Source: Candidatus Pacearchaeota archaeon (GTDB lineage: Archaea > Nanobdellota > Nanobdellia > Pacearchaeales > GW2011-AR1). From it: DNA of 52,518 nucleotides. Made by a program: the position numbers and the translations under genes. Positions 2,701-34,351 of this stretch are shown in pieces (the stretch's first letter is position 1; every line of letters starts with the position of its first letter). Where the stretch lies: the NCBI GenBank assembly GCA_018303885.1, contig JAGVXG010000008.1:1-52518 (forward strand). The letters are read 5' to 3'. The notes under the pieces are model-generated. The model ran no database searches and was not told the origin of the DNA. It worked only from the letters and a program-made list of their open reading frames with translations.

Positions 2701-3078
2701 ATGGCAGGCACAAAAACAAGGGAAATAACTATAACTGAATCAAAAGGAGCTTTTTCCTTGCCAAAAGGAGCTCTTTCACTGTTCAAAAAATCAGCAACAA
2801 CGTCTAAAAAAGACTATGATTTTGAAGGCATCTCTGCGTTGAGGCATCTTTTAAGCAATGAAAAAGCACGGATGTTAAACGTAATAAAAACGCAAAATCC
2901 GGGTTCTATTTATGAACTAGCTAAAAAACTTAATCGTAGGTTTAAGCCAGTGGCTGATGACATAAGGCTTCTTGAAAGGTTTGGCTTCATAGAGCTTTCA
3001 GAAGAAAAGATAAAAGGCAGGATTCGCCACAAGCCAGAAGTGATTGTTGATACTGTTACAATACATATTAAGGTTTAG
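2701..3078 (+). CDS. winged-helix DNA-binding protein (COG4190/HVO_A0114-like)
   Basis: This is a 125-aa basic protein with a winged-helix domain at about residues 45-110. The stretch KARMLNVIKTQNPGSIYELA followed by VADDIRLLERFGFIEL matches the helix pattern of the archaeal COG4190 family of MarR-like regulators. The first 40 residues are Lys/Ser-rich and probably unstructured. It is transcribed divergently from the S-layer gene with about 420 nt between the starts, so it could act on that promoter. It is followed 53 nt later by an unknown small gene. The fold is fairly sure; targets are unknown. Confidence 0.7.
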   Translation: MAGTKTREITITESKGAFSLPKGALSLFKKSATTSKKDYDFEGISALRHLLSNEKARMLNVIKTQNPGSIYELAKKLNRRFKPVADDIRLLERFGFIELSEEKIKGRIRHKPEVIVDTVTIHIKV

Positions 3079-3131
3079 GATTGTGATTAATTACAATAAA
3101 TAATAAAAAGGAGCAATACCTATAGATTATA

Positions 3132-3368
3132 ATGAATTTAGAATATAAAGCAGAATTTAAAAAATCTGACTTAATAGGAGATATTGCCGAATCTATAAGA
3201 CATAGAAGACCGGGTGTAGACATATCAAGTAGCAGAAATCTTGCAGAGCTTTCTTTAGCCGATCTAACTTTACAAGGAAATATGTTAATATATAGAATGT
3301 TAGTTGAATCAGGCACAAATTATGCACTTATTAGAGCTGATGGTGGTGAAATAGAACCTGCAATTTAA
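3132..3368 (+). CDS. hypothetical protein
   Basis: This 78-aa protein of mixed charge has no signal peptide or membrane segment, and I do not recognise a family. It follows the winged-helix gene in the same direction, so the two may form an operon. An AAGGAG sequence lies about 20 nt before the ATG, farther than usual. It ends 9 nt before the convergent pilin-like gene. Confidence 0.45.
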   Translation: MNLEYKAEFKKSDLIGDIAESIRHRRPGVDISSSRNLAELSLADLTLQGNMLIYRMLVESGTNYALIRADGGEIEPAI

Positions 3369-3377
3369 CTGCTATTT

Positions 3378-3875
3378 CTAGTAATAAGCCGTAAATGTAA
3401 CATTAGCTCCAGGCAAGTCCTGAAGCGCCCCTTTATAGTTCGATGTTAAATTGCCTTGCTTTACATATAGAATTTCTTTAGTGTTTGAAGCTATTTTAAG
3501 TTCATAGCCTTTTACGGGCTGATTTTGCCCGGTTTTCCAGCTTTGCGCCAAAATCCCTGCCAAAGTTTCGTTAAGGAGGTCACAGCTATTTATCTCTTCT
3601 AAATCCCGTTCAGGAGCTGCCTCAAAACAGGCTTTCTCACTGTCACAAAGGAAAATAAGCTCTTGAACAGAGAAAACTCTTTTTTCAGGACCGCATTCAG
3701 CAGTGTATTGCAACGTGGCTTGTATAAAACTATCGGCTTCGTAGCTTTCCACATTCTCTTTTCCCGACTTCTTCAGAGAAAAACTCAGCAAAAAAAGGAT
3801 GACAATAGCCACGATTATGATAATTAAGGCAAATCCAACCATTTCTTCCTGTCCTCGCTTGTTTGTTTTTGTCAT
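3378..3875 (-). CDS. pilin-like protein with class III signal
   Basis: The 165-aa product starts MTKTNKRGQEEMVGFALIII: a short basic leader, an RGQ/E processing-type site and a ~20-residue hydrophobic helix, the arrangement of archaeal type IV pilin and flagellin precursors processed by a FlaK/PibD-type peptidase. After the helix comes a 120-aa domain with four Cys (CGPEKR, CDSEKAC, SCDLL), which could form disulfides outside the cell. It heads the leftward surface cluster. Its leader carries the 32-nt hairpin shared with the gene at 4718. The pilin-like architecture is seen directly; assembly into a pilus is inference. Confidence 0.7.
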   Translation of the reverse strand: MTKTNKRGQEEMVGFALIIIIVAIVILFLLSFSLKKSGKENVESYEADSFIQATLQYTAECGPEKRVFSVQELIFLCDSEKACFEAAPERDLEEINSCDLLNETLAGILAQSWKTGQNQPVKGYELKIASNTKEILYVKQGNLTSNYKGALQDLPGANVTFTAYY

Positions 3876-3888
3876 GTTTTAACTCACT

Positions 3889-3920
3889 CGCTCTCGAACG
3901 ACCACGCTTGGGCGTTCGTT
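3889..3920 (-). repeat. 32-nt leader hairpin, copy 1
   Basis: CGCTCTCGAACGACCACGCT continues to GGGCGTTCGTT, identical over 32 nt to the copy at 5703-5734. CGAACG/CGTTCG arms enclose a CCA/TGG inner stem. It lies 13 nt upstream of the ATG at 3875, within the likely mRNA leader. Confidence 0.7.
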
Positions 3921-4036
3921 TTCGTTATTTATTTTACTTTTAATGTGAAAACCCATAAGGTTCAATTTACATAAACTTGATTTTACTTCTATTAACAACT
4001 TACTTTCTTTCCTTCTATAACCAAAATTATCATTTA

Positions 4037-4615
4037 TCATTTTATCTTCTTATATGTAACTATAATCTTTGCTATTTCACACACGTCAGCAATATAAGGA
4101 TATGCTGCCACAAAATTTCCCTCTTCATCATAAACTTCGTCACTTTTGGCTTGTTTTCTGCATAAAGCCACGAAGTTTGGAACTCCTGTTCCACCTTGTG
4201 GTTTCAAAATTTCTATTTTATTGCAATCTGGATAATTTTCCACAGTGCATAACTTACTTCCGCCTGTTGAAGGATAAATCTTTACTATTTCTATTCCAGA
4301 AACCCCCCAAAAATCAGCATCAGAGTACTTTTTTATGTTTTTCTTTAAAGCCATGACCTTGTCGAAATCTATACAATTTACCTTTGTAGTGCCGAAAGCC
4401 TCTCCACATGAAAACTCTGGCGAGTTTGCAAGTTTTGAAACCAAAAGTATCGCATTCCTTTCTTCGAGAACAGCCGCAGACTCTTTTAAGCCAGAAAACA
4501 AAACATTGGCTATAAACAACCCAACCAAGGCGAAAAACAAAGTCACAGCTATAAGCATGAAAGCCATCTGCTGAATCTTCATTTGTCCGCGTTTTCCTTT
4601 ATTTTGTTTTTTCAT
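4037..4615 (-). CDS. pilin-like protein with class III signal
   Basis: The 192-aa protein begins MKKQNKGKRGQMKIQQMAFM and continues into a ~25-residue hydrophobic helix, again basic leader + RGQ + helix. The extracellular part has paired Cys (FSCGEAFGTTKVNC, LCTVENYPDC, LCRKQ, VCEI) and no recognisable enzyme motif. It sits between two other pilin-like genes in the same direction. The class III signal is convincing; the function of the globular part is unknown. Confidence 0.7.
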   Translation of the reverse strand: MKKQNKGKRGQMKIQQMAFMLIAVTLFFALVGLFIANVLFSGLKESAAVLEERNAILLVSKLANSPEFSCGEAFGTTKVNCIDFDKVMALKKNIKKYSDADFWGVSGIEIVKIYPSTGGSKLCTVENYPDCNKIEILKPQGGTGVPNFVALCRKQAKSDEVYDEEGNFVAAYPYIADVCEIAKIIVTYKKIK

Positions 4616-4717
4616 TCTAATTTGCTCAATTCTCTTAAATTTAAAATGATAAGCTTCAATTCAACTTATTTTTAACTTTTTTACTTTAATTAACATTTTT
4701 ATTTTTCCTATTATTAA

Positions 4718-5677
4718 TCACCATAACTTAACCGTGAACCTGTCAAAGCACATTATATAATTTTTAACACCTATTTCTTCAGATACCTGAACTACAGATG
4801 CTAAGTCTCTAGAATCTCTTAGGGAATTTGCCGAGTTAGCCAAAAGCAAGAGATTTACGCTTGGAATACATCCTTGTTTCATTAGGAGTTGTTGTTTTTC
4901 ATCGTACAGTTTCGAAAGTTCGCTTGTTCTTTTCATAAGTCTTTTTACTTGGCACTCATATATGCTCTTGTCTGAAAAAACAGCAGCATACATTAGGGAA
5001 TCAGCCTCATAATAAACAATCTGCCCGCGTTTCTCCACAGACTTCTGAAATTCATCAACATTTATATCACAATTGTCGTCGCTAGACCCAAAACAAACCT
5101 TTATGCTGTTTTCAGGACATGCACCATCTTCAACAAGAATATTTTCCTGATTCAAATCAGAAAGTTCTTCTTTTATTTCTCGCGGAGGCTGAAAGAAACA
5201 ATACTTTTTCTCTTTTGACATAAGATAAATCAAATCAGAAACCTTAAAGGGAAATTCAAAAGGCTTCGCAAAAATAATGAAATCTTTTCCTTGTTCAACA
5301 CCTTCAGAAAAAATATATTTGTTTGAAAACTCTGTTTGCAGGTCTGTTTCTGTCCATTTTTCGAAGCTTTTCTGGGATATTTTTATTATCTGGCTTCCAA
5401 AATTTTCAGAAGTGCTGCACTCGTTGTAGATTCTTGTTTCTACAGGCATGGTAAGCAGCGTGACAACACTTGTTTCAAATCCCGTTTCTAAAGGGCTTAA
5501 TAAAACAGAAATTTCCTTTCCTGTTTTCGCCGTTGTTGCTTCTCCACCTGTCTTGATAACTTTTGTAGAAATGTAAATTGCAAGAAACAAGATAACTGCT
5601 CCAACGATGATTGCAAAAATCCATGCAAAAGAAATCTGTAATTGCCCTTTTTTGTTTTTGCCTCTTTTTTTTATCAT
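4718..5677 (-). CDS. large pilin-like protein
   Basis: I prefer ATG at 5677 (319 aa) to the track start at 5719, because it gives MIKKRGKNKKGQLQISFAWI, a basic leader, KGQ site and hydrophobic helix, and because the upstream sequence then forms a leader like that of the gene at 3378, with an AAAGGAG motif. The ectodomain (about residues 50-319) contains an internal TMPVETRIYNECS segment, several Cys and a region rich in aromatic residues; no known enzyme motif is visible. A family of such larger KGQ proteins seems common in DPANN genomes, to my knowledge without an assigned role. Confidence 0.65.
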   Translation of the reverse strand: MIKKRGKNKKGQLQISFAWIFAIIVGAVILFLAIYISTKVIKTGGEATTAKTGKEISVLLSPLETGFETSVVTLLTMPVETRIYNECSTSENFGSQIIKISQKSFEKWTETDLQTEFSNKYIFSEGVEQGKDFIIFAKPFEFPFKVSDLIYLMSKEKKYCFFQPPREIKEELSDLNQENILVEDGACPENSIKVCFGSSDDNCDINVDEFQKSVEKRGQIVYYEADSLMYAAVFSDKSIYECQVKRLMKRTSELSKLYDEKQQLLMKQGCIPSVNLLLLANSANSLRDSRDLASVVQVSEEIGVKNYIMCFDRFTVKLW

Positions 5678-5702
5678 GTTTAGCTCACCCACTCCTTTCA
5701 GT

Positions 5703-5734
5703 CGCTCTCGAACGACCACGCTTGGGCGTTCGTT
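5703..5734 (-). repeat. 32-nt leader hairpin, copy 2
   Basis: Identical to 3889-3920. On the transcript it folds as CGAACG-C-CCA-AGCG-TGG-T-CGTTCG. It lies 25 nt upstream of the preferred ATG at 5677. Confidence 0.7.
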
Positions 5735-5935
5735 CCCATAATTGGTTTTATTGTTAATGTAAAAGCCAAACTGATATTATAAATTTTCATATGATATTAT
5801 TAATTATCACGTTTAATTTTATATGAACCCACTTCGATTTTATTTTAAGTTTTTAATGTAAACAACTTAAGTTATTTAATTAACACTTATTCTATAGTAA
5901 TATTATTTACAATTTATTTTTATTTAATACCTTTG

Positions 5936-6445
5936 TTAACCACCAATTCTTGTAATCCTAACCAACCTATCACTGAAATCTTTTACCAGCCTTAACTTTA
6001 CTTTCCCATTAACGTTTGATATGCAAAAAGGATTTTCATTTTCAGTAATTGATGCTAAGTCTATATACTTTATTTCTGCCGATTCAGTTCCTTCAAAATC
6101 TAATGGATAAAAAACAATGTTTTCTTTTCCATAATAAGCTCTTTTTAGCTCATTGTAAATTCCGTTTTTTGCACCTCTTGCCGAAGAACTAAAGTCAACA
6201 AAGCAGGCAAATGACTTTTTTCCAGGTAAGGAGTATTCTTCATTTTCCGAGGATTGTTCGCTTTTCCATACTTTCTCTACGTCTGATTGAAAGTCATTCA
6301 AGAATTTGGCTGTTTTTGCAGAATCCTGGACACCAAGAAAAGCCCTTATTCCAAAAAAAGCAAATGCAAGAAAAAACACTATAAGAATTATGGAAAAAAT
6401 CATCCCAAATGAAAGTTGCATTTGTGCATTCTTTTTTGTTTTCAT
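5936..6445 (-). CDS. pilin-like protein with class III signal
   Basis: The 169-aa product starts MKTKKNAQMQLSFGMIFSII followed by a long hydrophobic helix. The leader is Lys-rich and the processing-type site is NAQ rather than RGQ. Two Cys (FACF, FCIS) lie in the ectodomain. A gap of about 260 nt separates it from the gene at 4718, so it may have its own promoter. It closes the first run of four pilin-like genes before the TrmB-type regulator. Confidence 0.65.
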   Translation of the reverse strand: MKTKKNAQMQLSFGMIFSIILIVFFLAFAFFGIRAFLGVQDSAKTAKFLNDFQSDVEKVWKSEQSSENEEYSLPGKKSFACFVDFSSSARGAKNGIYNELKRAYYGKENIVFYPLDFEGTESAEIKYIDLASITENENPFCISNVNGKVKLRLVKDFSDRLVRITRIGG

Positions 6446-6480
6446 GTTATAATATTATGTAATTTGATATTTAAAATATG

Positions 6481-7227
6481 TTATTTCTTAGCGATTCTCC
6501 AAAAAGCATCAAAGTAAGATTTAAAACCCTTGGCTATTTCTTCATTTTCTACTAAAAATCCGACTGGTTCTTCTGATAAGAAAAAAATAAAAGATTTATT
6601 TTTATAAAAAACGATAGTCATATTAGAAACTAAATATTCTGGCAAAAATTTTATTTCTGATTTTAATGAGGTTGTTTTAACCAATTTACTTTTTATATCA
6701 TAGTTTGCCAACATTTTTACTTTTATTTTCTTTTTTGCCCTTTGTTTATGATAATTTTCAAAGAACTCTTTAACTCCCGGTTTATTTTCTCCGTAAGTAG
6801 CACCTATAACATAATAAGTACTTCTTGGCGATAGTTCATCTAAAATATTAAGATAGAAGTTCTTTATTGCCTTAAATCCCAAGTATAATATGGCTTCCGT
6901 TTGTTGTTTTCTGGCCCTTTGTTTTAGTTCTGGGAGTATTTTTTGAATTATCTCTTTTTGCTGGTTAAAATGTTTAGTTTTTTCCTCTAAATAATTAATA
7001 ATTCTTTTTGGCTCCATAGCACTAAAATAGGCTACTTTCCCCCTTATTAAGGAGCCTACTAATCCTTTTTTAGTTAGTTTATCAAGAATAATATATAATT
7101 TAGATCTGGAAACCTGAGACTCCTTGGTTATAGCTCCTGTAGAACTTTGGCCTATTTTTAAAAGAGCCAAGTATACCTTAGCTTCGCCAGGCGTTAGTCC
7201 AATCTCTTCCAGTATCTTAGTGTCCAT
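6481..7227 (-). CDS. TrmB-family transcriptional regulator
   Basis: In this 248-aa protein, residues 1-75 form the TrmB winged helix (EEIGLTPGEAKVYLALLKIG, then a second helix ending SRSKLYIILDKL and a wing KGLV). A coiled-coil linker follows at about 80-115. The C-terminal domain (IGATYGENKPGVKEFFENYH) resembles the TrmB effector domain but is short, with no obvious sugar-binding signature. In Thermococcales relatives control sugar transport; here the neighbours are surface genes, so it may control the pilin-like cluster and the divergent gene at 7323. Confidence 0.8.
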   Translation of the reverse strand: MDTKILEEIGLTPGEAKVYLALLKIGQSSTGAITKESQVSRSKLYIILDKLTKKGLVGSLIRGKVAYFSAMEPKRIINYLEEKTKHFNQQKEIIQKILPELKQRARKQQTEAILYLGFKAIKNFYLNILDELSPRSTYYVIGATYGENKPGVKEFFENYHKQRAKKKIKVKMLANYDIKSKLVKTTSLKSEIKFLPEYLVSNMTIVFYKNKSFIFFLSEEPVGFLVENEEIAKGFKSYFDAFWRIAKK

Positions 7228-7270
7228 ATCTTAAATTTAATTTCCAAATATAAAAATCTTTCTATTTTTA

Positions 7271-7284
7271 TCCCCCTAAGGGGA
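7271..7284. promoter_or_regulatory. inverted repeat, candidate operator
   Basis: TCCCC-CTAA-GGGGA lies between the divergent TrmB-type gene and the gene at 7323, just upstream of the latter's TATATAAAAA box (7291-7300) and upstream of a TTTTTATATTT box for the TrmB gene (about 7247). The position fits a regulator binding both promoters. A similar CCCC/GGGG hairpin occurs at 29078-29090. Confidence 0.4.
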
Positions 7285-7322
7285 ACACAATATATAAAAA
7301 GATAATTTTATGCCGTTTAATT

Positions 7323-7736
7323 ATGGAAACTAGAATAGGAAAAATTAATAAGAATTTGAAAGATATTTTGAGAGAAAGCGATGAACTAGCTGGAAGATTT
7401 AGCCCAAAATTAAGAAAAAAAATCGCAGATGTGAATGATATTAACAATAAATATTCTAAATGGGCCCTGATTATTGGGGGCTTAGTAGGAACATCAATTG
7501 GTTATTCTACTGGATTTTTAAGGGATTCTGGAGCACCAGAAATAGTGAATTATATTTCTTATTTTATTGGAGGATCTATGCTTTCAGCTCTTCCTGGTTT
7601 ATTTATTGGGGATAAAATAAAAGAAAGAGCATATCTTAGACTGCAAGATGAATATCCAGAGAAAGCTCAAGATATAGAGAGATTCCAAGATTTAGCTAGA
7701 GACTTTAATGCTCTCAGATCCATGTTAACTCCATAA
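7323..7736 (+). CDS. small two-TM membrane protein
   Basis: This 137-aa protein has about 45 N-terminal soluble, charged residues, two hydrophobic segments (about 47-66 and 76-97, Gly-rich), then a charged tail. I recognise no family. A TATATAAAAA box at 7291-7300 predicts a nearly leaderless transcript. Its divergence from the TrmB regulator and tight linkage to the gene at 7765 suggest a small two-gene unit. Confidence 0.55.
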   Translation: METRIGKINKNLKDILRESDELAGRFSPKLRKKIADVNDINNKYSKWALIIGGLVGTSIGYSTGFLRDSGAPEIVNYISYFIGGSMLSALPGLFIGDKIKERAYLRLQDEYPEKAQDIERFQDLARDFNALRSMLTP

Positions 7737-7764
7737 TAACTTACGTAAATAGTAAAAAATCAAA

Positions 7765-8265
7765 ATGAAATATAAAATAAAACAACAGAAAAGAAAAGAT
7801 AAAAAGAAAAACGCGCTAAGAAAAATAGCGGATGCTGGATTAAGTGCTTTAGCTATTTTGAGTTTAAGCGGGGCTGGACTGGGATTTTTATATCTGAGTG
7901 GGATTATAGGTAAAGAAGAATATATGCGAAGATGTTATTATAGTAGCTATAGTGGGGTCCCAACTAAAACAATTCAAATAGCACGAGTAAGGTTTCCCTT
8001 CAGTCTTTATGTTACAAACTACAGAGATTTTTGGGAAGACGGTAGCTTAGACATTTATGAAAGAGGTTCTTTAGATATGGGTGAAAACGTTCTTGGAGAA
8101 AGATTAACAATAGTATCAGACACCATACCTCTTATTAGGTATGCTAAAGAAGGAAGAACATTATTAAGAATTTCTCAAGAAGCAAAAGAATTACAAACAA
8201 GATTTGACAATTCCTTAAAATTAAAATCTTATTTCTACCATCAAACGAAGTGTAAAGCGATTTAA
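7765..8265 (+). CDS. membrane-anchored hypothetical protein
   Basis: The 166-aa product has a very basic 25-residue N-terminus, a single hydrophobic helix at about 27-47, and a Tyr/Arg-rich outside domain with YMRRCYYSSYSG near its start. No family is recognised. It starts 28 nt after the previous gene and ends 2 nt before the convergent large surface gene. Confidence 0.5.
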   Translation: MKYKIKQQKRKDKKKNALRKIADAGLSALAILSLSGAGLGFLYLSGIIGKEEYMRRCYYSSYSGVPTKTIQIARVRFPFSLYVTNYRDFWEDGSLDIYERGSLDMGENVLGERLTIVSDTIPLIRYAKEGRTLLRISQEAKELQTRFDNSLKLKSYFYHQTKCKAI

Positions 8266-8267
8266 AA

Positions 8268-10394
8268 TCAATCACTCCTAACTTCAAACGGCTTCGCAAT
8301 AATATTACATGCGTTAGGGAAAGGCTGGTTTCCAAACTCGTCAGAGCATTTTATGTAAAAAATCTTGTTTGTGTTCCATGCAGTTGAATGCTCTGTTCCA
8401 TTAACAGCCTTAGTCATGTTTGTGCCATCCTTAAACAAGTAATCACAGCCAAAGTTTCCATATACGCATTGTGCTTTTTCATTCGTAATCACCTTCAGAC
8501 TGTTTTCTTGTCTGAAGACACGAACAACTGTAGGTGCGATTGTGTCTGTTTCTACTTTGAAACTAATTGTTTTTGTGTCTACATTTCCTCCAAGGTCTAT
8601 GCATTGAATATCATAAATGTAGTCTCCTGCTGTAAGGAATAAATCCTGAGAATGTTCGTGTGTTCCTGTATTGAAAAATTCATTGAAGTTTCCACCTGTT
8701 CCAGGTCCTTCATAAGAGCACAATGCCTTTCCTTCATCATATCCTGCAGAGGTCTTTACTTCAAGCTTTACTTTTATCACATCTGTCGAATCTTTTATCG
8801 TCGTTGAGTTTGGTTTTGCAGAATCTATTACCAAAGGCTCTGTCCCCTTCAATGTGAATTTGTATGACTGTTTGTTTGTATTTCTTTTATTTTCTTCAGG
8901 AGTTCCTTTCAAATGTGGCTGATCTTTGCATCTGAAATAAAATTCGTTATCTGCTCTATCTATCAAGCCAGTTAAAGTCGTTGCACATTGATAAAGCATC
9001 TGTGCATTGAATTCAAGTGCTCCTGTTTTGCATGTCATTTGGTTTTCCATATCATCGTAGGCTCTATCAAGTCTGTCCCACTTACATTCACTTGGTTCAT
9101 TTACATAAACCTGGAGATTTACAGAAGTTTGTCCAAATGGTATTGGAGAATTGTTTAAAATACTTGTTGTTACTATTTCTGGCTGTCTTTTATCTGGCCC
9201 ATTATCAACACAGAATTTAAAGATCGTAAAGGCTGATGGAGAGTCTCCTTTTGGATTTCCGTTTTCATCTTGACATCTGAAATAAATTGAGAATCGTCCC
9301 CCATTTGCAAGGGTTATGCCTTCCGCCTCAAGAGCATCAGGACTTTGGATATTTGTTTGGAATGAATGGTTATACCTTGTTCTACCTTCACTTAAGAAAT
9401 GTTCCATTGTATCAAAATTATTTTTATTTGAGAAATCAACTTTACATTTTCCCGCTTTATTAAGAGTGACACCAAACCTTAAAGCAATGAAGGGGGCCAC
9501 GCATCCATTATCGTTTGTTTCAGGCACAATTTTCCATCCCCTGTTTGGAGGAGAAGTTGTACTATCTGGAATATATTTGTAACCTGTTGTAAGGATTTGC
9601 TGCCATGGTTGCATTATAGGAGGTGTTACGTCGTCTCTGTTTTTCCAGATACAAAGTTCTTCTGTTGTCCCCTTATTAACAAGTTCACATGCCTGCCCAA
9701 GACTTTCACATTGATATTCTGTGCATGGCAAACCCCCTTTATTACACCTGTCACAATACTGTCCGCCCAAAGGCGCGTCCCAAGGATAACATGTAAAAGA
9801 ATAAAGATCATATTTTACATCTTTGGCAAAAACCGCAAAAATTACCACAGCAACTATAAGACCAATAACTGGAGCGCTAATCCCCAAAATTGCATTTATT
9901 CCTAGGTCTTTTAATGTCATTGAGGCAAAAACACCGATAGAAACCCCAGCTGAAATTGCTTTTTCAATTGATGGATCTAAAAAATCAACTTGGCTAAAGA
10001 ACCCTCTAAGGCCAGCGTAAATACCTGCAGCTGTAAAAGCATTGCCACCCACTTGCCCAATATTTTTACCTACTGATTCTCCAATTGCTCCACCCCTCCT
10101 ACCACCAGGCTCGGCTACCCCCCTAGCTCCTCCTCCACCAAGTCTGGTTACCTCACCAGTTACTTGTATCGATGTTGTTTCAGTCTGCTCCGCTCTCTCT
10201 AAACCAGACAAATCGCTGCCAGACTCTGATGGCGCTAACGCTTTTATAGTGGATTTTGTAGTGGGAATAGGCACTGGAGATAAAGCATTTACAACACGAA
10301 ACTCGCTTCCAACAAAATAAGAAAAGGCAATAATACTTACTAATAGAATAATTATCTGGCTTATTACAACACTTTTTTTTATTTTATTTTTCAT
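8268..10394 (-). CDS. large Cys-rich membrane/surface protein
   Basis: The 708-aa protein has an N-terminal hydrophobic segment (IIILLVSIIAFSYFVGS), a Gly-rich linker, two or three more hydrophobic helices around residues 115-190, and a long ectodomain. The ectodomain begins with a Cys-dense stretch (YCDRCNKGGLPCTEYQCESL) and continues with repeated beta-rich units ending in FRCQD, FRCKDQ or IKCSDEFGN, like Ig-type or bacterial surface repeats. It lies 9 nt from the next Cys-rich gene, so the two are probably co-transcribed. It may be a large pilus-associated or adhesin-type subunit. The architecture is direct; the role is unknown. Confidence 0.65.
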   Translation of the reverse strand: MKNKIKKSVVISQIIILLVSIIAFSYFVGSEFRVVNALSPVPIPTTKSTIKALAPSESGSDLSGLERAEQTETTSIQVTGEVTRLGGGGARGVAEPGGRRGGAIGESVGKNIGQVGGNAFTAAGIYAGLRGFFSQVDFLDPSIEKAISAGVSIGVFASMTLKDLGINAILGISAPVIGLIVAVVIFAVFAKDVKYDLYSFTCYPWDAPLGGQYCDRCNKGGLPCTEYQCESLGQACELVNKGTTEELCIWKNRDDVTPPIMQPWQQILTTGYKYIPDSTTSPPNRGWKIVPETNDNGCVAPFIALRFGVTLNKAGKCKVDFSNKNNFDTMEHFLSEGRTRYNHSFQTNIQSPDALEAEGITLANGGRFSIYFRCQDENGNPKGDSPSAFTIFKFCVDNGPDKRQPEIVTTSILNNSPIPFGQTSVNLQVYVNEPSECKWDRLDRAYDDMENQMTCKTGALEFNAQMLYQCATTLTGLIDRADNEFYFRCKDQPHLKGTPEENKRNTNKQSYKFTLKGTEPLVIDSAKPNSTTIKDSTDVIKVKLEVKTSAGYDEGKALCSYEGPGTGGNFNEFFNTGTHEHSQDLFLTAGDYIYDIQCIDLGGNVDTKTISFKVETDTIAPTVVRVFRQENSLKVITNEKAQCVYGNFGCDYLFKDGTNMTKAVNGTEHSTAWNTNKIFYIKCSDEFGNQPFPNACNIIAKPFEVRSD

Positions 10395-10403
10395 TTCAAC
10401 TTA

Positions 10404-12128
10404 TTAAGACTCCTCAGGTTCATAGTTTTTAGTTCTTACAACAGGGTTTTCGCTGTGATAGCCTTTAATTTCTATGTAATTGCTTTTGTTTCCACAATCT
10501 CCGAGAGCAACGCACATGTTATTTCTATCATTCGCCCATTTATTACGTGAGAATTCTAATATGAATTTGTTCGGAGGATCGCCCTTTCTTAATCCAGCAC
10601 ATTCACAATTTTCTTTGCAGTCCCAATCCAAACCACCGAGCAAACTTTTTTCAAATTTCACTAAGCAATTATCACTTGCAAGCAGGCATATATCTGTTGC
10701 CTTACTTTCAGGAGCCCAAAAATCAAATCCGGGAGGATAAAGAGGTACACATGCAGCACCCTTTTTCTCATCGTCGTCACCAGAAACCTCTGCTTTTGGC
10801 ACAAGTTGCCCTTCACTATTGACTACAAAGGGTTTTCCTTCGTCGTCACGAAATCCTGATAATGATAAAGTTTGCCCTTCTAACCATTTACAGTCTCTTT
10901 TATCGCGATTTTCACAGTCTTTTTTATTATCCATAGAAGTACATTCTTGCCATTCATTTGCCCTGCATCTTGCTGAACTAAATCCAGGAACAACTTCATC
11001 TTCAATACAGAGTGTTCCCCTAAAAGGATCACATAACTCTGTGGTAACTTCCCCATTATAGCAAACAAATTTTCCATGCTGGCTTCCAGGCAAGTTTTGA
11101 CTTATTCCTGTAGAGGTAGCACACCATGTTTCTCCGTGCTCATATTTTTTGCCCTGATATTCACAACTTAAATCCGCACAGACAAAACTTCCGTATTGTG
11201 GTTGTGGTGTTGCCTTGTTGCCACGCTCAAAAGGCTTGCAAGTACTACCGGGTACAGCTGTATAATCACAGCTTCCACATGTAGTAGAGCCAGCATTGCC
11301 TTCATCTGGGTTGCAGCTTTCATCCCTTTCTTTTATATTGGTCCAGTATTCCTGATTGTTTATTTTTGATGCATCGTAAATATTTGCAAGATTCCCGCAC
11401 GTGTCTAAGAAATAAACCTCAAATTTATTTTCAACACATGTTGTTTTCTGTGATCTTCCGCAATTTGTAGCAAGAGATTCTGCAGAACACAAAAGCCCCT
11501 CATGAAATTCTATTGTTGTATCCTCAGAACTTCCAGAATTTGATTCAAGTTTTTGGCATTCTGATTGCGTTAAAAGTTTGCATTTTCTTTCGATGCCATC
11601 ATCAATAACACAAGCACCCTTTACGTCAGGATTTGCACTTGCAAGACAGGCTTCATTGCTTTTTATATCTGACCTGAAATTTGATGGAATTCCATAATCA
11701 GAAGAAAGAGTTTTACATTCGTTTTGTGTTACAAACGCTCCTTGGTCTCCAAGCAAACAACAACCCAATTGGCATTGAATAATCTCATCTGGTTTTCCGG
11801 GAAGCCAGACTCCGTTGCTTTCTTGACAAACTACTTGAGGAACGTTAGGACGGCATTCTCCTGCTCTGTTATTAACACATGTTCCAAGCTTGCAAAATGC
11901 AGTGGCTTCACATGAAGTTGAAGCTTGGCGATAACGCTGGCCAGTGATAGGGTTTATAGCTGTGTTAACCTGATTTGCAGGAACATTCTGACACCATGCA
12001 CCGCTCAATGTTTTTTCAGCGCAGACAAAAGTTTCTCCGACAGCAGATACTTGATTAATTGATAAAAATACTAAAATTGTTAATATAAATACTCCGAGTA
12101 TCAACATAGACCAACTTTTTTTTACCAT
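10404..12128 (-). CDS. Cys-rich secreted protein
   Basis: I prefer ATG at 12128 (574 aa) over the track start at 12158: it gives MVKKSWSMLILGVFILTILV, a clean signal or anchor, and an AAGGAGCGAG site lies upstream. The mature part contains dozens of Cys in short spacings (CQLGCCLLGDQGAFVTQNEC, CGSCDYT, CKENCECAGL), indicating a disulfide-knotted extracellular protein. The motif GCCLLGDQG-x-C recurs with variations, suggesting tandem small modules. No catalytic motif is seen. It is transcribed between a pilin-like gene and the 708-aa surface protein. Confidence 0.65.
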   Translation of the reverse strand: MVKKSWSMLILGVFILTILVFLSINQVSAVGETFVCAEKTLSGAWCQNVPANQVNTAINPITGQRYRQASTSCEATAFCKLGTCVNNRAGECRPNVPQVVCQESNGVWLPGKPDEIIQCQLGCCLLGDQGAFVTQNECKTLSSDYGIPSNFRSDIKSNEACLASANPDVKGACVIDDGIERKCKLLTQSECQKLESNSGSSEDTTIEFHEGLLCSAESLATNCGRSQKTTCVENKFEVYFLDTCGNLANIYDASKINNQEYWTNIKERDESCNPDEGNAGSTTCGSCDYTAVPGSTCKPFERGNKATPQPQYGSFVCADLSCEYQGKKYEHGETWCATSTGISQNLPGSQHGKFVCYNGEVTTELCDPFRGTLCIEDEVVPGFSSARCRANEWQECTSMDNKKDCENRDKRDCKWLEGQTLSLSGFRDDEGKPFVVNSEGQLVPKAEVSGDDDEKKGAACVPLYPPGFDFWAPESKATDICLLASDNCLVKFEKSLLGGLDWDCKENCECAGLRKGDPPNKFILEFSRNKWANDRNNMCVALGDCGNKSNYIEIKGYHSENPVVRTKNYEPEES

Positions 12129-12277
12129 ATTAATAACTCGCTCCTTCCAGTCGTTCATAATTTACGCTTTTGTTAATGTAAAAACCCACAGAATTGAAAT
12201 TTATAACCATACTATTTTCTTTTAACTTATTAAAACTCTTTTTCTCTTTTTTATCATCAAAATATATTTTCATCATT

Positions 12278-13078
12278 TTAATTCGTTGCAACTTCATCAA
12301 TTCCATAGCCAGGAGGCCATGCAACGCTTCTTGATGCAAACTGGAATTTATTTCCCGTGTTTCTGTCTGTTAAGATATAAATTGTTGAGCCATCTACCTG
12401 ATTGAGCTTTTCAACTTTTAAATCCGGATAATAACTCATGTAAAGTGTTGTTTCTGCATCTCCGAATTCTGATTCCCAATCAATTATGCTATTTGCTATG
12501 CTTACCAATTCATAAAGACCATTGTTCAAAACAACATTGAAAGAATCATACCTTTCTGTATCTGTTTTCGTCGTAGTTAAAGTATAATTAAATCTTGCCA
12601 CAACTCTTTTTGGAAGCAATTCAACTCTTACATTTCCAGGCCGCAAGTTCACAGTATATCCTCTTGATTCATAACTGTTTTTCAGCTCGTTAAAACAATT
12701 GACTACAGCAGGTTTTATTTCGTTTTCAATTTCTGATTCAATATGTTCTTTTAGCAATGGCCGTTGAACGCTGCAAGTTTTGTAATATTCTGTCGTGTAG
12801 CAAAGATATTCTATTTTATCATCTTGGTAAAGAATGAAATTTTCCGGATTCACACTGCCGCCTTGTGATGAAATAAGATTGACAGTATCCTCTAAATCAT
12901 TTTCAATACATATCTGTATGAACTCATTAGGGCTTTTTTCATCGAACCCTGTCGTGACTGTTGTTCCCGGCCTCAAAAAATAAATCAACACAACAAGCGC
13001 CACAATCAAAATAGCAGCAATAATGAAAACAGTTACTTGTCCGCCTTTATTTACTATAAAAGAATCACCTCTTTTCAT
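12278..13078 (-). CDS. pilin-like surface protein
   Basis: The 266-aa protein starts MKRGDSFIVNKGGQVTVFII and continues into a ~22-residue helix ending YFLRPG, so it has a KGGQ-type class III signal. The ectodomain starts FIQICIENDLEDTVNLISSQ, with Cys in CYTTEYYKTC and NCFNEL, and ends PPGYGIDEVATN. Relatives with this GGQ plus CIE pattern occur widely in DPANN genomes, to my recollection as hypothetical proteins. A TTTATAAA box precedes the start by about 20 nt. Confidence 0.65.
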   Translation of the reverse strand: MKRGDSFIVNKGGQVTVFIIAAILIVALVVLIYFLRPGTTVTTGFDEKSPNEFIQICIENDLEDTVNLISSQGGSVNPENFILYQDDKIEYLCYTTEYYKTCSVQRPLLKEHIESEIENEIKPAVVNCFNELKNSYESRGYTVNLRPGNVRVELLPKRVVARFNYTLTTTKTDTERYDSFNVVLNNGLYELVSIANSIIDWESEFGDAETTLYMSYYPDLKVEKLNQVDGSTIYILTDRNTGNKFQFASRSVAWPPGYGIDEVATN

Positions 13079-21948: not shown

Positions 21949-22518
21949 TTACCTAAACTCGTTTTTATACCTCTTTCTTTTTATTATAAACAAAACAGCA
22001 ATCAAAACACAAAAAACCGCAAATCCCCAGAGAGCGATGTTTTTCTGTAAACCTTTGGCTTCATCTGTTTTTATAACTTTTGGATTCAATGGATTTAATA
22101 CTATTGTTTCTTTTTCTACTTCCTGATTAGATGATAAATTGTTAATAGTTGGCTCTTCTATTTCAGATCTATTTTCATTATTGGTGCTGTTATTTGCATC
22201 ATCTTTATTTTTTTCTTTCAAATCTTTTTCTGTACCACTATCTTCATTTTCTTCGTCTTCAACACAAGCCAATCCTTGAGTTTTTATGTTACTAAGAGTT
22301 ACTTCTCCTATTCCTTTAACTTTTATTAAATCGTCAACAGAACTAAATGGCCTTGAATTTATTATTTCTTGTGCTTTTGCAGGACCTATTCCAGTTAGTT
22401 TATCAAGTTCTTCCAAAGAAGCAGAATTTATGTCGACTTGCCCTTCTTCACAAATAGCAGAGATAAATTGGACAAAAGAGATAATAGCCAATATCAATAA
22501 CAAAACCTTTCTCTCCAT
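21949..22518 (-). CDS. secreted ComEA-like helix-hairpin-helix protein
   Basis: The 189-aa protein has a signal peptide (VLLLILAIISFVQFISA), an HhH pair (VDINSASLEELDKLTGIGPA and VDDLIKVKGIGEVTLSNIKT) like the bacterial DNA receptor ComEA, an acidic Asn/Glu linker, and a C-terminal TM helix (WGFAVFCVLIAVLFIIKRKR). The HhH domain would face outside and bind double-stranded DNA without sequence preference. In ComEA the anchor is N-terminal and the HhH C-terminal; here the order is reversed. A DNA-uptake role is inference. Confidence 0.75.
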   Translation of the reverse strand: MERKVLLLILAIISFVQFISAICEEGQVDINSASLEELDKLTGIGPAKAQEIINSRPFSSVDDLIKVKGIGEVTLSNIKTQGLACVEDEENEDSGTEKDLKEKNKDDANNSTNNENRSEIEEPTINNLSSNQEVEKETIVLNPLNPKVIKTDEAKGLQKNIALWGFAVFCVLIAVLFIIKRKRYKNEFR

Positions 22519-31676: not shown

Positions 31677-32288
31677 ATGGATTTTAAAACAGCCCTTAAA
31701 CAGCTGAAGGCCATGGAAAAAAACAGCAAAGGCATGAGACTTGCCGCAGAATCTTGGAGCTCTGATTTTCAAGTCCTCATTTCCACAATTCTTTCTGCAA
31801 GAACACGTGATGAAGTTACAATAGTTGTCGCAGAGAATTTATTTAAAAAATATCCAACGGCAAAAAGTTTGGCAAAGGCAAAGGTAAGCGATGTTGAGAA
31901 GATAATCAAGCCAGTAAATTTCTACAGGAACAAGACAAAAAACATAATTAACTGTTCAAATGAATTAGTAGAAAACTTCAATGGAACCGTGCCTCATGGC
32001 TTAGATGCTTTAATTTCTCTCTCCGGCGTCGGCAGAAAAACCGCAAATGTATTTTTGGCCGAACACGGAAAACACGCATTGCCTGTAGACACCCATGTTT
32101 TTTACTTATCAAGAAAACTTGGTTGGGCCAAAGATAAAAATCCGCATAAGGTTGAGGAAGAATTAAAAAAACTGTTTCCCAAAAAATACTGGAACAGAAT
32201 AAATTCAACTCTTGTTAGATTCGGGAAAACACACACAAGCAGAAAACAAAAAGATAAACTGCTGGAAGAAATAAAAAAAATAAAATGA
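31677..32288 (+). CDS. nth: endonuclease III without Fe-S ligands
   Basis: The 203-aa HhH glycosylase/AP lyase has SSDFQVLISTILSARTRDEV, the HhH with catalytic Lys LSGVGRKTANVFLAEHG, and the catalytic Asp in PVDTHVFYLSRKLG. The C-terminus stops at FGKTHTSRKQKDKLLEEIKK, where other Nth proteins carry four Cys binding a 4Fe-4S cluster; no Cys remain there. It removes oxidised pyrimidines. Its stop overlaps the next glycosylase by 4 nt. Confidence 0.88.
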   Translation: MDFKTALKQLKAMEKNSKGMRLAAESWSSDFQVLISTILSARTRDEVTIVVAENLFKKYPTAKSLAKAKVSDVEKIIKPVNFYRNKTKNIINCSNELVENFNGTVPHGLDALISLSGVGRKTANVFLAEHGKHALPVDTHVFYLSRKLGWAKDKNPHKVEEELKKLFPKKYWNRINSTLVRFGKTHTSRKQKDKLLEEIKKIK

Positions 32289-32908
32289 ATGTGATAAATT
32301 TGATAGAAGAGCTTAGAAACTCTCCAATAAGAAGTACAATAGACTCAAGAATAAAAGAATTTGATGAATTAGGTAAAAAATCAGATCAAGAGATATTTAA
32401 AGAACTTTGTTTCTGCTTTTTAACAGCTAATTTTAGTGCCTCCGGCGGAATTAAAATACAAAATGACGTTAACGACGGATTTTTATATCTTTCAGAAGAA
32501 GAGCTGGCAGAAAAACTCTCTTCTTTAAGTCATAGATTTCCAAATGCAAGGGCAAAATTTATTGTTGAAGCAAGAAAGCATAAAGATACCATAAAACAAA
32601 CCCTAAAAAATTTTTCTGATGAAAAGACTATGAGAAATTGGCTGGCAGAGAATATTAAAGGACTGGGAATGAAAGAATCCAGTCATTTTTTAAGAAATAT
32701 TGGATACAACAATGTGGCAATAATTGACTTTCATATAATTGATTTCCTTTCAAATCATGGTCTAATCGAAAAACCAAAAAATCTGAACAGAAGAAAATAT
32801 CTTGAAATTGAAAATATTCTTGAAGAGCTAGCAGAACAGACCGGTACTTCATTAGGAGAACTTGACCTTTATCTTTGGTATCATGAAACTGGAAAGGTTT
32901 TGAAGTAA
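32285..32908 (+). CDS. ogg: N-glycosylase/DNA lyase, Ogg2-type (8-oxoguanine)
   Basis: The 207-aa protein matches archaeal Ogg2: FKELCFCFLTANFSASGGIK, the HhH with catalytic Lys ENIKGLGMKESSHFLRNIGY, the catalytic Asp in VAIIDFHIIDFLSNHGLIEK, and a C-terminal LYLWYHETGKVLK. It removes 8-oxoguanine. The ATGA overlap with nth makes a two-gene oxidative-damage repair operon. Confidence 0.9.
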   Translation: MNVINLIEELRNSPIRSTIDSRIKEFDELGKKSDQEIFKELCFCFLTANFSASGGIKIQNDVNDGFLYLSEEELAEKLSSLSHRFPNARAKFIVEARKHKDTIKQTLKNFSDEKTMRNWLAENIKGLGMKESSHFLRNIGYNNVAIIDFHIIDFLSNHGLIEKPKNLNRRKYLEIENILEELAEQTGTSLGELDLYLWYHETGKVLK

Positions 32909-32990: not shown

Positions 32991-32998
32991 TTTATAAA
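32991..32998 (+). promoter_or_regulatory. TATA box for the lytic transglycosylase gene
   Basis: TTTATAAA about 45 nt before ATG 33043, followed by a CGGAGAA site, predicts a ~20-nt leader. Confidence 0.5.
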
Positions 32999-33042
32999 GT
33001 CTAAATTTAGAATAATATCTCGGAGAATTTTTTCACCAAATT

Positions 33043-33693
33043 ATGAAAAAAACAACAAAAACTATCAAGTATGTACTGGCACTTTCCTTAGTTGGAAATC
33101 TTGCTCCATTAGAAAATAATTTTTCTTTACCAAATGAAAATTCTTTGGAAAAGAAAGTTTTAGAATGCTATTCTGAAATTCCTAACCCTGTTGGCCAAAA
33201 TAGCACCGCCAAAAGAAATTACAGTGAAGACGAAATTCTTAAAACTATTAACAATGTCTATAACTGTTTGCCTTCTAAACCAGAATACTTTTCAGAAAAA
33301 TTCATAAAGGAAATGGTGAAAAAGGAATCATCATATAACCCTAGATCAGTTAGTGAAAAAGGAGCTCTTGGTCTTATGCAAATAATGCCAGAAACATGGA
33401 AAGAGCAAACAAAAAGGCTTTACAGAAGAGAACTTTCTTTTGACCTCGCTTTCAATCCAAAAACCAATCTTGAAGTTGGCCTTAGCTATTTGCTGTGGAT
33501 TGACGAATTCTCAAAAAATCGTTATCAAAATTGGGAAAGCCTAAGTGACAAAGAAAAAAGAGAAAAAGTTATGGCCGCATATCACGGCGGTATTTCAAGA
33601 CTTTATTCATTGAATGGGAATATAAATGATATGCCTAGAGCAACTCGTGATTATATTAAGACGATAGAAGCAGGAATGGAAGTTAACGATTAA
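33043..33693 (+). CDS. secreted lytic transglycosylase (SLT domain)
   Basis: The 216-aa protein has an N-terminal basic-hydrophobic signal-like segment (TIKYVLALSLVGNLAPLENN), then an SLT lysozyme-like domain from about residue 80: the catalytic Glu in VKKESSYNPRSVSEKGALGL, MQIMPETWKE, NPKTNLEVGLSYLLWIDEF, and VMAAYHGGISRL. All SLT landmarks are present. Archaea lack murein, so the target is probably bacterial peptidoglycan, or the enzyme is used to open a host or prey wall. A single-gene unit with its own promoter and terminator-like hairpin; likely acquired from bacteria. Confidence 0.85.
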   Translation: MKKTTKTIKYVLALSLVGNLAPLENNFSLPNENSLEKKVLECYSEIPNPVGQNSTAKRNYSEDEILKTINNVYNCLPSKPEYFSEKFIKEMVKKESSYNPRSVSEKGALGLMQIMPETWKEQTKRLYRRELSFDLAFNPKTNLEVGLSYLLWIDEFSKNRYQNWESLSDKEKREKVMAAYHGGISRLYSLNGNINDMPRATRDYIKTIEAGMEVND

Positions 33694-33745: not shown

Positions 33746-34351
33746 CTATTTCTGCAACGCCATTCTTCTTTGCCTTTTCGGCTGCTTTGATATCTTAGTT
33801 TGATGCTTCATTGTTTTCGCTGCAACCTTTTCCATTTCTTTGCCGGCTTCGACAACAGAGGCTTTCTTCGACTCGGCTTCGCTAAGACGAGTTTCTTCAT
33901 CGGCTTCCTTTTTCTGCTGTTCTTTTTCTTCTGCGGTTTCTTCGGCTTTTTCAGGCGCTTTTTCTTCCTCAGCTTTCTTTTTGCTGACGACTTCAGAAGC
34001 TTTTTTATCTCTTTTTTCGAGTTTTGTCTTTTTGAATCCCAATTCTTTAGGAAGCTCAAAAAGTTCTACTTTTACTATGTCTCCTTCTTTCCTTGCTTTT
34101 ACTTTAATCCTTGCAGGCGGTTTTCTTATTCCTCTAAACCATACAAATTCGTTCAGATATCTGTCAATTTTAACCTTATTCAAGTCTCCATCACGAATTT
34201 TCATATGTCTTACTAAAAACTCTTTTATTGTTCTTATCGCTTTATTCGCTCTTTTGTATCTTGGAACTTTATTCCAGTTTCTTCTAAGAGGAATTACATA
34301 TTCTCTTTCCATACCACCGACGCTCGATGTTTTTTCTGTTTTGTCAGACAT
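33746..34351 (-). CDS. rpl31e: ribosomal protein L31e with long charged tail
   Basis: Residues ~14-100 are L31e: MEREYVIPLRRNWNKVPRYK, KANRA-type basic helix, NEFVWFRGIRKPPARIKVKA. The remaining ~100 residues are a Lys/Glu/Ala-rich tail (KKKAEEEKAPEKAEETAEEK) ending in basic KQPKRQRRMALQK. Typical archaeal L31e is about 90 aa, so the tail doubles it. It belongs to the 50S subunit near the tunnel exit. Confidence 0.9.
   Translation of the reverse strand: MSDKTEKTSSVGGMEREYVIPLRRNWNKVPRYKRANKAIRTIKEFLVRHMKIRDGDLNKVKIDRYLNEFVWFRGIRKPPARIKVKARKEGDIVKVELFELPKELGFKKTKLEKRDKKASEVVSKKKAEEEKAPEKAEETAEEKEQQKKEADEETRLSEAESKKASVVEAGKEMEKVAAKTMKHQTKISKQPKRQRRMALQK

Follow-up and report, generated by a model that had tools for sequence, protein, structure and literature searches.

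The 216-residue open reading frame at 33043..33693 on the forward strand of the window (the whole stretch of 52,518 nt analysed here), which starts with an ATG at 33043 and whose stop codon ends at 33693, is, judged by its sequence, a GH23/SLT lytic transglycosylase (family 1) with a predicted intact active site. We consider it probable that the product is a small single-domain GH23 enzyme, exported by the DPANN archaeon and directed at bacterial murein. SLT proteins in Pacearchaeota and Woesearchaeota, together with the idea of episymbionts living on bacteria, have already been published (Castelle 2021, PMC8204110; Vigneron 2022, PMC9723730). DPANN SLT proteins, and the proposal that bacterial walls are their target, are also covered by PMC10936187 and PMC11537232, and peptidoglycan hydrolases of a haloarchaeon have been shown to kill bacteria (PMC12352652). 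As far as the literature found shows, the novelty lies in the short SLT family, its two conserved loci, and the set of five genes, including L,D-transpeptidases, in one genome.

A Pfam scan identified an SLT domain (PF01464) at residues 83–187 with an E-value of 4e-19 and 68.7 bits, the curated cut-off being 21.3 bits, and the calls of the phage library and NCBIfam were concordant. No domain besides SLT, and no peptidoglycan-binding domain, was found in this Pfam scan. The top matches among solved structures, by sequence alignment, were MltC and Slt70. The segment KKESSYNP aligned on RQESAWNP of Slt70, with ES on the catalytic ES, and the alignments place the codon of the catalytic residue E95 at 33325..33327 (+). 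E95 and S96 were invariant across a 16-sequence alignment of the short family, and the catalytic Glu was kept in all aligned SLT domains from DPANN archaea (30/30), bacteria (67/67) and viruses (43/43), in agreement with the original prediction of an SLT domain with an intact catalytic Glu. A GLMQ motif at residues 110–113 (33370..33381, +) was recognized from the structure match and the family alignment. The family alignment also located AAYHGG at residues 178–183 (33574..33591, +), which corresponds to the GH23 motif AYNxG with His for Asn. This residue, H181, is the sole departure from the GH23 motifs, Asn being present there in at least 90% of the family in the 16-sequence alignment. The AlphaFold model had a mean pLDDT above 90 over residues 61–210, and Foldseek matched it to MltC, MltE and Slt, with a probability of 1.00 for MltC and MltE (TM 0.53 by query, at most 0.61 by target). 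The protein shares the predicted fold and the catalytic Glu with MltC, MltE and Slt70 of E. coli (GH23, lytic transglycosylase family 1), but is without their extra domains and is only 17–26% identical to them in structural alignments.

The GH23 fold includes enzymes of different specificities. The change from Asn to His at position 181 and the domain-only architecture would also fit an SLT fold turned to another polymer, such as a surface glycan of the archaeon itself, chitin-like material or an extracellular polysaccharide, or to the assembly of its own surface proteins. We regard such a substrate as improbable, because the remaining motifs are of the murein lytic transglycosylase type and the PG_binding_1 and YkuD domains co-encoded in the genome, described below, indicate murein.

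The N-terminus of the protein has an n-region of charge +4 followed by a short hydrophobic core (YVLALSLVGNLA), and a Sec signal peptide (MKKTTKTIKYVLALSLVGNLAP) is predicted at 33043..33108 (+), with a charge of +4 and a hydrophobic core of 2.1 by simple scoring. A crude signal-peptide test was passed by 26 of 27 short-family members, the window protein being among the 27; the same test was also passed by 17 of the 43 window proteins, many of them clearly membrane or exported proteins. From these modest but family-wide signal-peptide-like N-termini we infer that the protein is exported, and secretion, as originally proposed, is probable. A TATA-box-like element, tttataaag, was read by eye at 32991..32999 (+), approximately 45–50 nt 5' of the ATG, and suggests a putative promoter of the gene's own.

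The contig that carries the gene encodes the ribosomal proteins L31e and S19e, PCNA, a TruB/Cbf5-type pseudouridine synthase, an archaeal Methyltrn_RNA_2 protein and a RuBisCO large chain, as identified by Pfam. Pfam and synteny identify the neighbours of the SLT gene as an Nth/HhH-GPD endonuclease gene, conserved upstream (31677..32288, +), an 8-oxoguanine glycosylase gene (Ogg-HhH) immediately upstream and conserved in four genomes (32285..32908, +), and the convergent L31e gene downstream (33746..34351, -). A bacterial or chimeric contig might be suspected, since bacteria abound in SLT domains, which archaea normally lack (PMC8204110). We consider this extremely improbable and rejected bacterial contamination, because archaeal genes flank the SLT gene on the same contig, its gene order is common to three congeners, a second order recurs in 20 relatives, and its composition is typical (GC 0.333 as compared to 0.348 ± 0.034 for the neighbours, and GC3 likewise). 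The contig and its synteny with relatives thus support the archaeal origin that had been assumed. A prophage origin of the locus was also rejected, the flanking genes being housekeeping genes.

The genome of the window comprises 0.72 Mb in 17 contigs and is 84.75% complete and 0.31% contaminated. Its size and gene content, together with what has been published on SLT and RuBisCO in these archaea (PMC8204110), suggest a DPANN lineage close to Pacearchaeota and Woesearchaeota. No match to Mur_ligase_M was found in it, whereas the same model matched 13 of 14 control genomes, and no match to the penicillin-binding Transpeptidase, which matched 10 of the 14 controls. The genome is only 85% complete, so the missing murein genes are not proof of absence; the result is nevertheless consistent with the earlier claim that the archaeon has no murein of its own. 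A role against the bacterial wall, which had also been proposed, would be the most economical function.

Scans of the sequence collections were based on six close SLT sequences. The distribution of the gene was analyzed at three levels. A single-sequence search matched 25 of 138 genomes of the window's family, whereas the profile search gave matches in 51 of 200 genomes of the order, including large proteins with frames of 1300–2800 residues. In a sample of the phylum, 26 of 371 genomes matched at 1e-15, and strong full-length short matches were almost all from within the window's family. Four genomes of the window's genus (the window's own, G117, G155 and G158) have the SLT gene after Nth–Ogg; the convergent L31e gene follows next in G117 and G155, and the contig ends there in G158. 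Ogg adjoins L31e with no SLT gene between them in G097 and G047, and G097 has its SLT gene between the genes for ThrRS and TrpRS instead. The latter arrangement, with SLT next to ThrRS and/or TrpRS, was found in 20 related genomes from about 15 genera, whereas in the window's own genome ThrRS and TrpRS are adjacent with no SLT gene between them. The simplest account of these gene orders would be an old SLT gene at ThrRS/TrpRS that later moved to Nth–Ogg in part of the genus; a tree of the neighbouring genes in the genus, which bears on the alternative of a single gain within the genus, did not recover the branching order and gives no sequence of gain, loss and move. We conclude from the comparison that SLT is in all probability an old, mainly vertically inherited gene of the lineage, kept at conserved sites, for which a recent donor can therefore not be given.

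The same data bear on the alternative that the enzyme is an antibacterial weapon or a means of defence, released to kill or deter competitor bacteria and not to open a host. Among congeners, the SLT proteins are 34–41% identical, as compared to 49–64% for the neighbouring Ogg and Nth; such fast divergence, together with the patchy distribution, fits a conflict, and one tested archaeal case of bacteria-killing peptidoglycan hydrolases exists (PMC12352652). However, the protein has no binding domain, no immunity or delivery genes were seen beside the SLT gene, and the gene occupies a stable chromosomal site over about 15 genera and not plasmids or variable islands. That the gene has been retained at conserved chromosomal sites is slightly easier to reconcile with a constant element of the lifestyle than with a mobile weapon, and we consider the weapon or defence reading rather unlikely. 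Sequence does not discriminate between thinning of a partner's wall and defence, the two uses originally suggested.

The nearest relative outside DPANN by profile score was a phage gene, L106, with 140.9 bits, whereas the other viral and bacterial sequences fetched scored at most 88 bits by the same profile; single-protein scans for further viral relatives recovered L106 alone. The product of this endolysin-type SLT gene (187 residues; 4815-5378, +, on the 163-kb viral contig IMG/VR 3300031576_000004) resembles the archaeal protein in having a short hydrophobic segment at the N-terminus and a C-terminal motif of similar kind (WDISKMPTETRQYI), but the gene is a viral one, with a fused RNA polymerase of phage type as its neighbour. 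In a tree of the SLT domain, built from 90 rows and 126 columns and with many weak forks, 23 DPANN rows grouped with L106 with a support of 89, which is modest and under the star level, and the rest of the DPANN rows were scattered among other rows. The domain phylogeny that had been suggested as a way to find the donor shows no bacterial donor near the DPANN group, and recent transfer from a traceable donor was not supported.

Four more peptidoglycan-related genes were found on other contigs of the genome. Contig C6 (L239) encodes an MltB-like SLT_2 protein of the GH103 type (282 residues, probably exported; 6818-7666, -; E = 2e-31), with S24e and tRNA synthetases among its neighbours. Contig C5 (L238), which also encodes TFB, carries genes for two probably exported YkuD L,D-transpeptidases identified by Pfam (2167-2799, +, and 2789-5218, -; E = 3e-20 and 6e-16). 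The former is a protein of 210 residues (E = 3e-20) and the latter, of 809 residues, combines PG_binding_1 repeats with YkuD and has the motif SHGCIRM. Upstream of the 809-residue gene and on the same strand lies a gene for a 2299-residue surface protein (6052-12951, -) with a diverged C-terminal SLT domain below the Pfam cut-off, which reads GESSIQ...LGVMQIN...RYYNGW...NTRYVDYI. Among the 200 genomes of the order, 14 encode YkuD and 11 encode SLT_2, and genomes with SLT carry either of them above expectation (Fisher p ~0.02 each, own genome excluded), from small counts and with the genomes treated without correction for kinship. The conserved synteny and these four additional genes argue against regarding the SLT gene as a lone curiosity or as recently acquired.

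Several enzymes of murein type in a small genome could also serve to scavenge murein fragments of dead bacteria as a source of carbon, nitrogen or amino sugars, and the use of peptidoglycan from dead bacteria has been proposed for Pacearchaeota (PMC11537232). L,D-transpeptidases are ill-suited to a purely degradative role, and we consider scavenging unlikely. A more specific possibility, which we put forward tentatively, is that the exported GH23 enzyme, the GH103/MltB-like enzyme and the two L,D-transpeptidases cut and re-join the bacterial wall and could anchor the archaeon covalently, as an episymbiont of bacteria. No description of L,D-transpeptidases in DPANN was found in a limited search of the literature.

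Other exported-looking proteins were observed in these genomes. On the reverse strand of the window, 3378-6445 and 12278-13078 encode a series of short proteins that begin in a KRGQ-like manner and have a single hydrophobic helix (class III signal/pilin-like). Next to them, at 8268-12158, are two large exported proteins rich in Cys; those of these proteins that were scanned had no match in Pfam. Relatives of the 12278-13078 protein are encoded next to the giant SLT gene of contig C5 (34% over approximately 85 residues) and close to the short SLT gene of G009. The exported-looking helix-hairpin-helix protein at 21949-22518 (-) resembles ComEA-type DNA-binding proteins, with DNA uptake as a possible role. 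A Woesearchaeota SLT protein (L052, 5836-6660) has a C-terminus that looks LysM-like by eye.

The window protein was compared with three groups of archaeal proteins from the literature. The large DPANN SLT proteins of fam00969 (PMC8204110) likewise come from small-genome DPANN archaea, are predicted to be extracellular and were proposed to act against the bacterial walls of hosts, but they reach approximately 3,000 residues, whereas the 216-residue single-domain protein belongs to a separate short family. It is thus not the very large extracellular protein that defines fam00969; the 2299-residue protein fits that description. The GH23 proteins of the 'vampiristic' Woesearchaeota (Vigneron et al. 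2022, PMC9723730) also combine GH23, a DPANN genome and a predatory reading, but are described as large, with the pore-forming toxin gene tlyC in some. The modular hydrolases of Strock et al. 2025 (PMC12352652) are archaeal and directed against bacterial peptidoglycan, and Nanoarchaeota are rich in them; their definition requires a catalytic and a cell-wall-binding domain, and the 216-residue protein is without the latter.

Action on bacterial murein is the most likely function, because the active site and fold are conserved, murein-synthesis markers were not found, murein-type enzymes are co-encoded and the gene has long been retained. The modest signal peptide, AYHGG in place of AYNxG, the patchy distribution and the lack of a peptidoglycan-binding domain are points against this reading. 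If the enzyme follows the well-known reaction of GH23 lytic transglycosylases, E95 would serve as the general acid/base, and cleavage of the MurNAc-GlcNAc bond would leave 1,6-anhydro-MurNAc ends. Such anhydro-forming cleavage would locally loosen the wall of the bacterial cell. We infer that murein is the substrate and that the enzyme may be used where the archaeon touches a bacterial partner or prey cell.

The DPANN archaea in culture are known chiefly as episymbionts of other archaea (compare PMC8204110). The analysis names concrete proteins that are open to testing, and a lineage in which murein enzymes predicted to be exported have stayed at conserved chromosomal positions across many genera makes a good candidate for archaea that dwell on bacteria.
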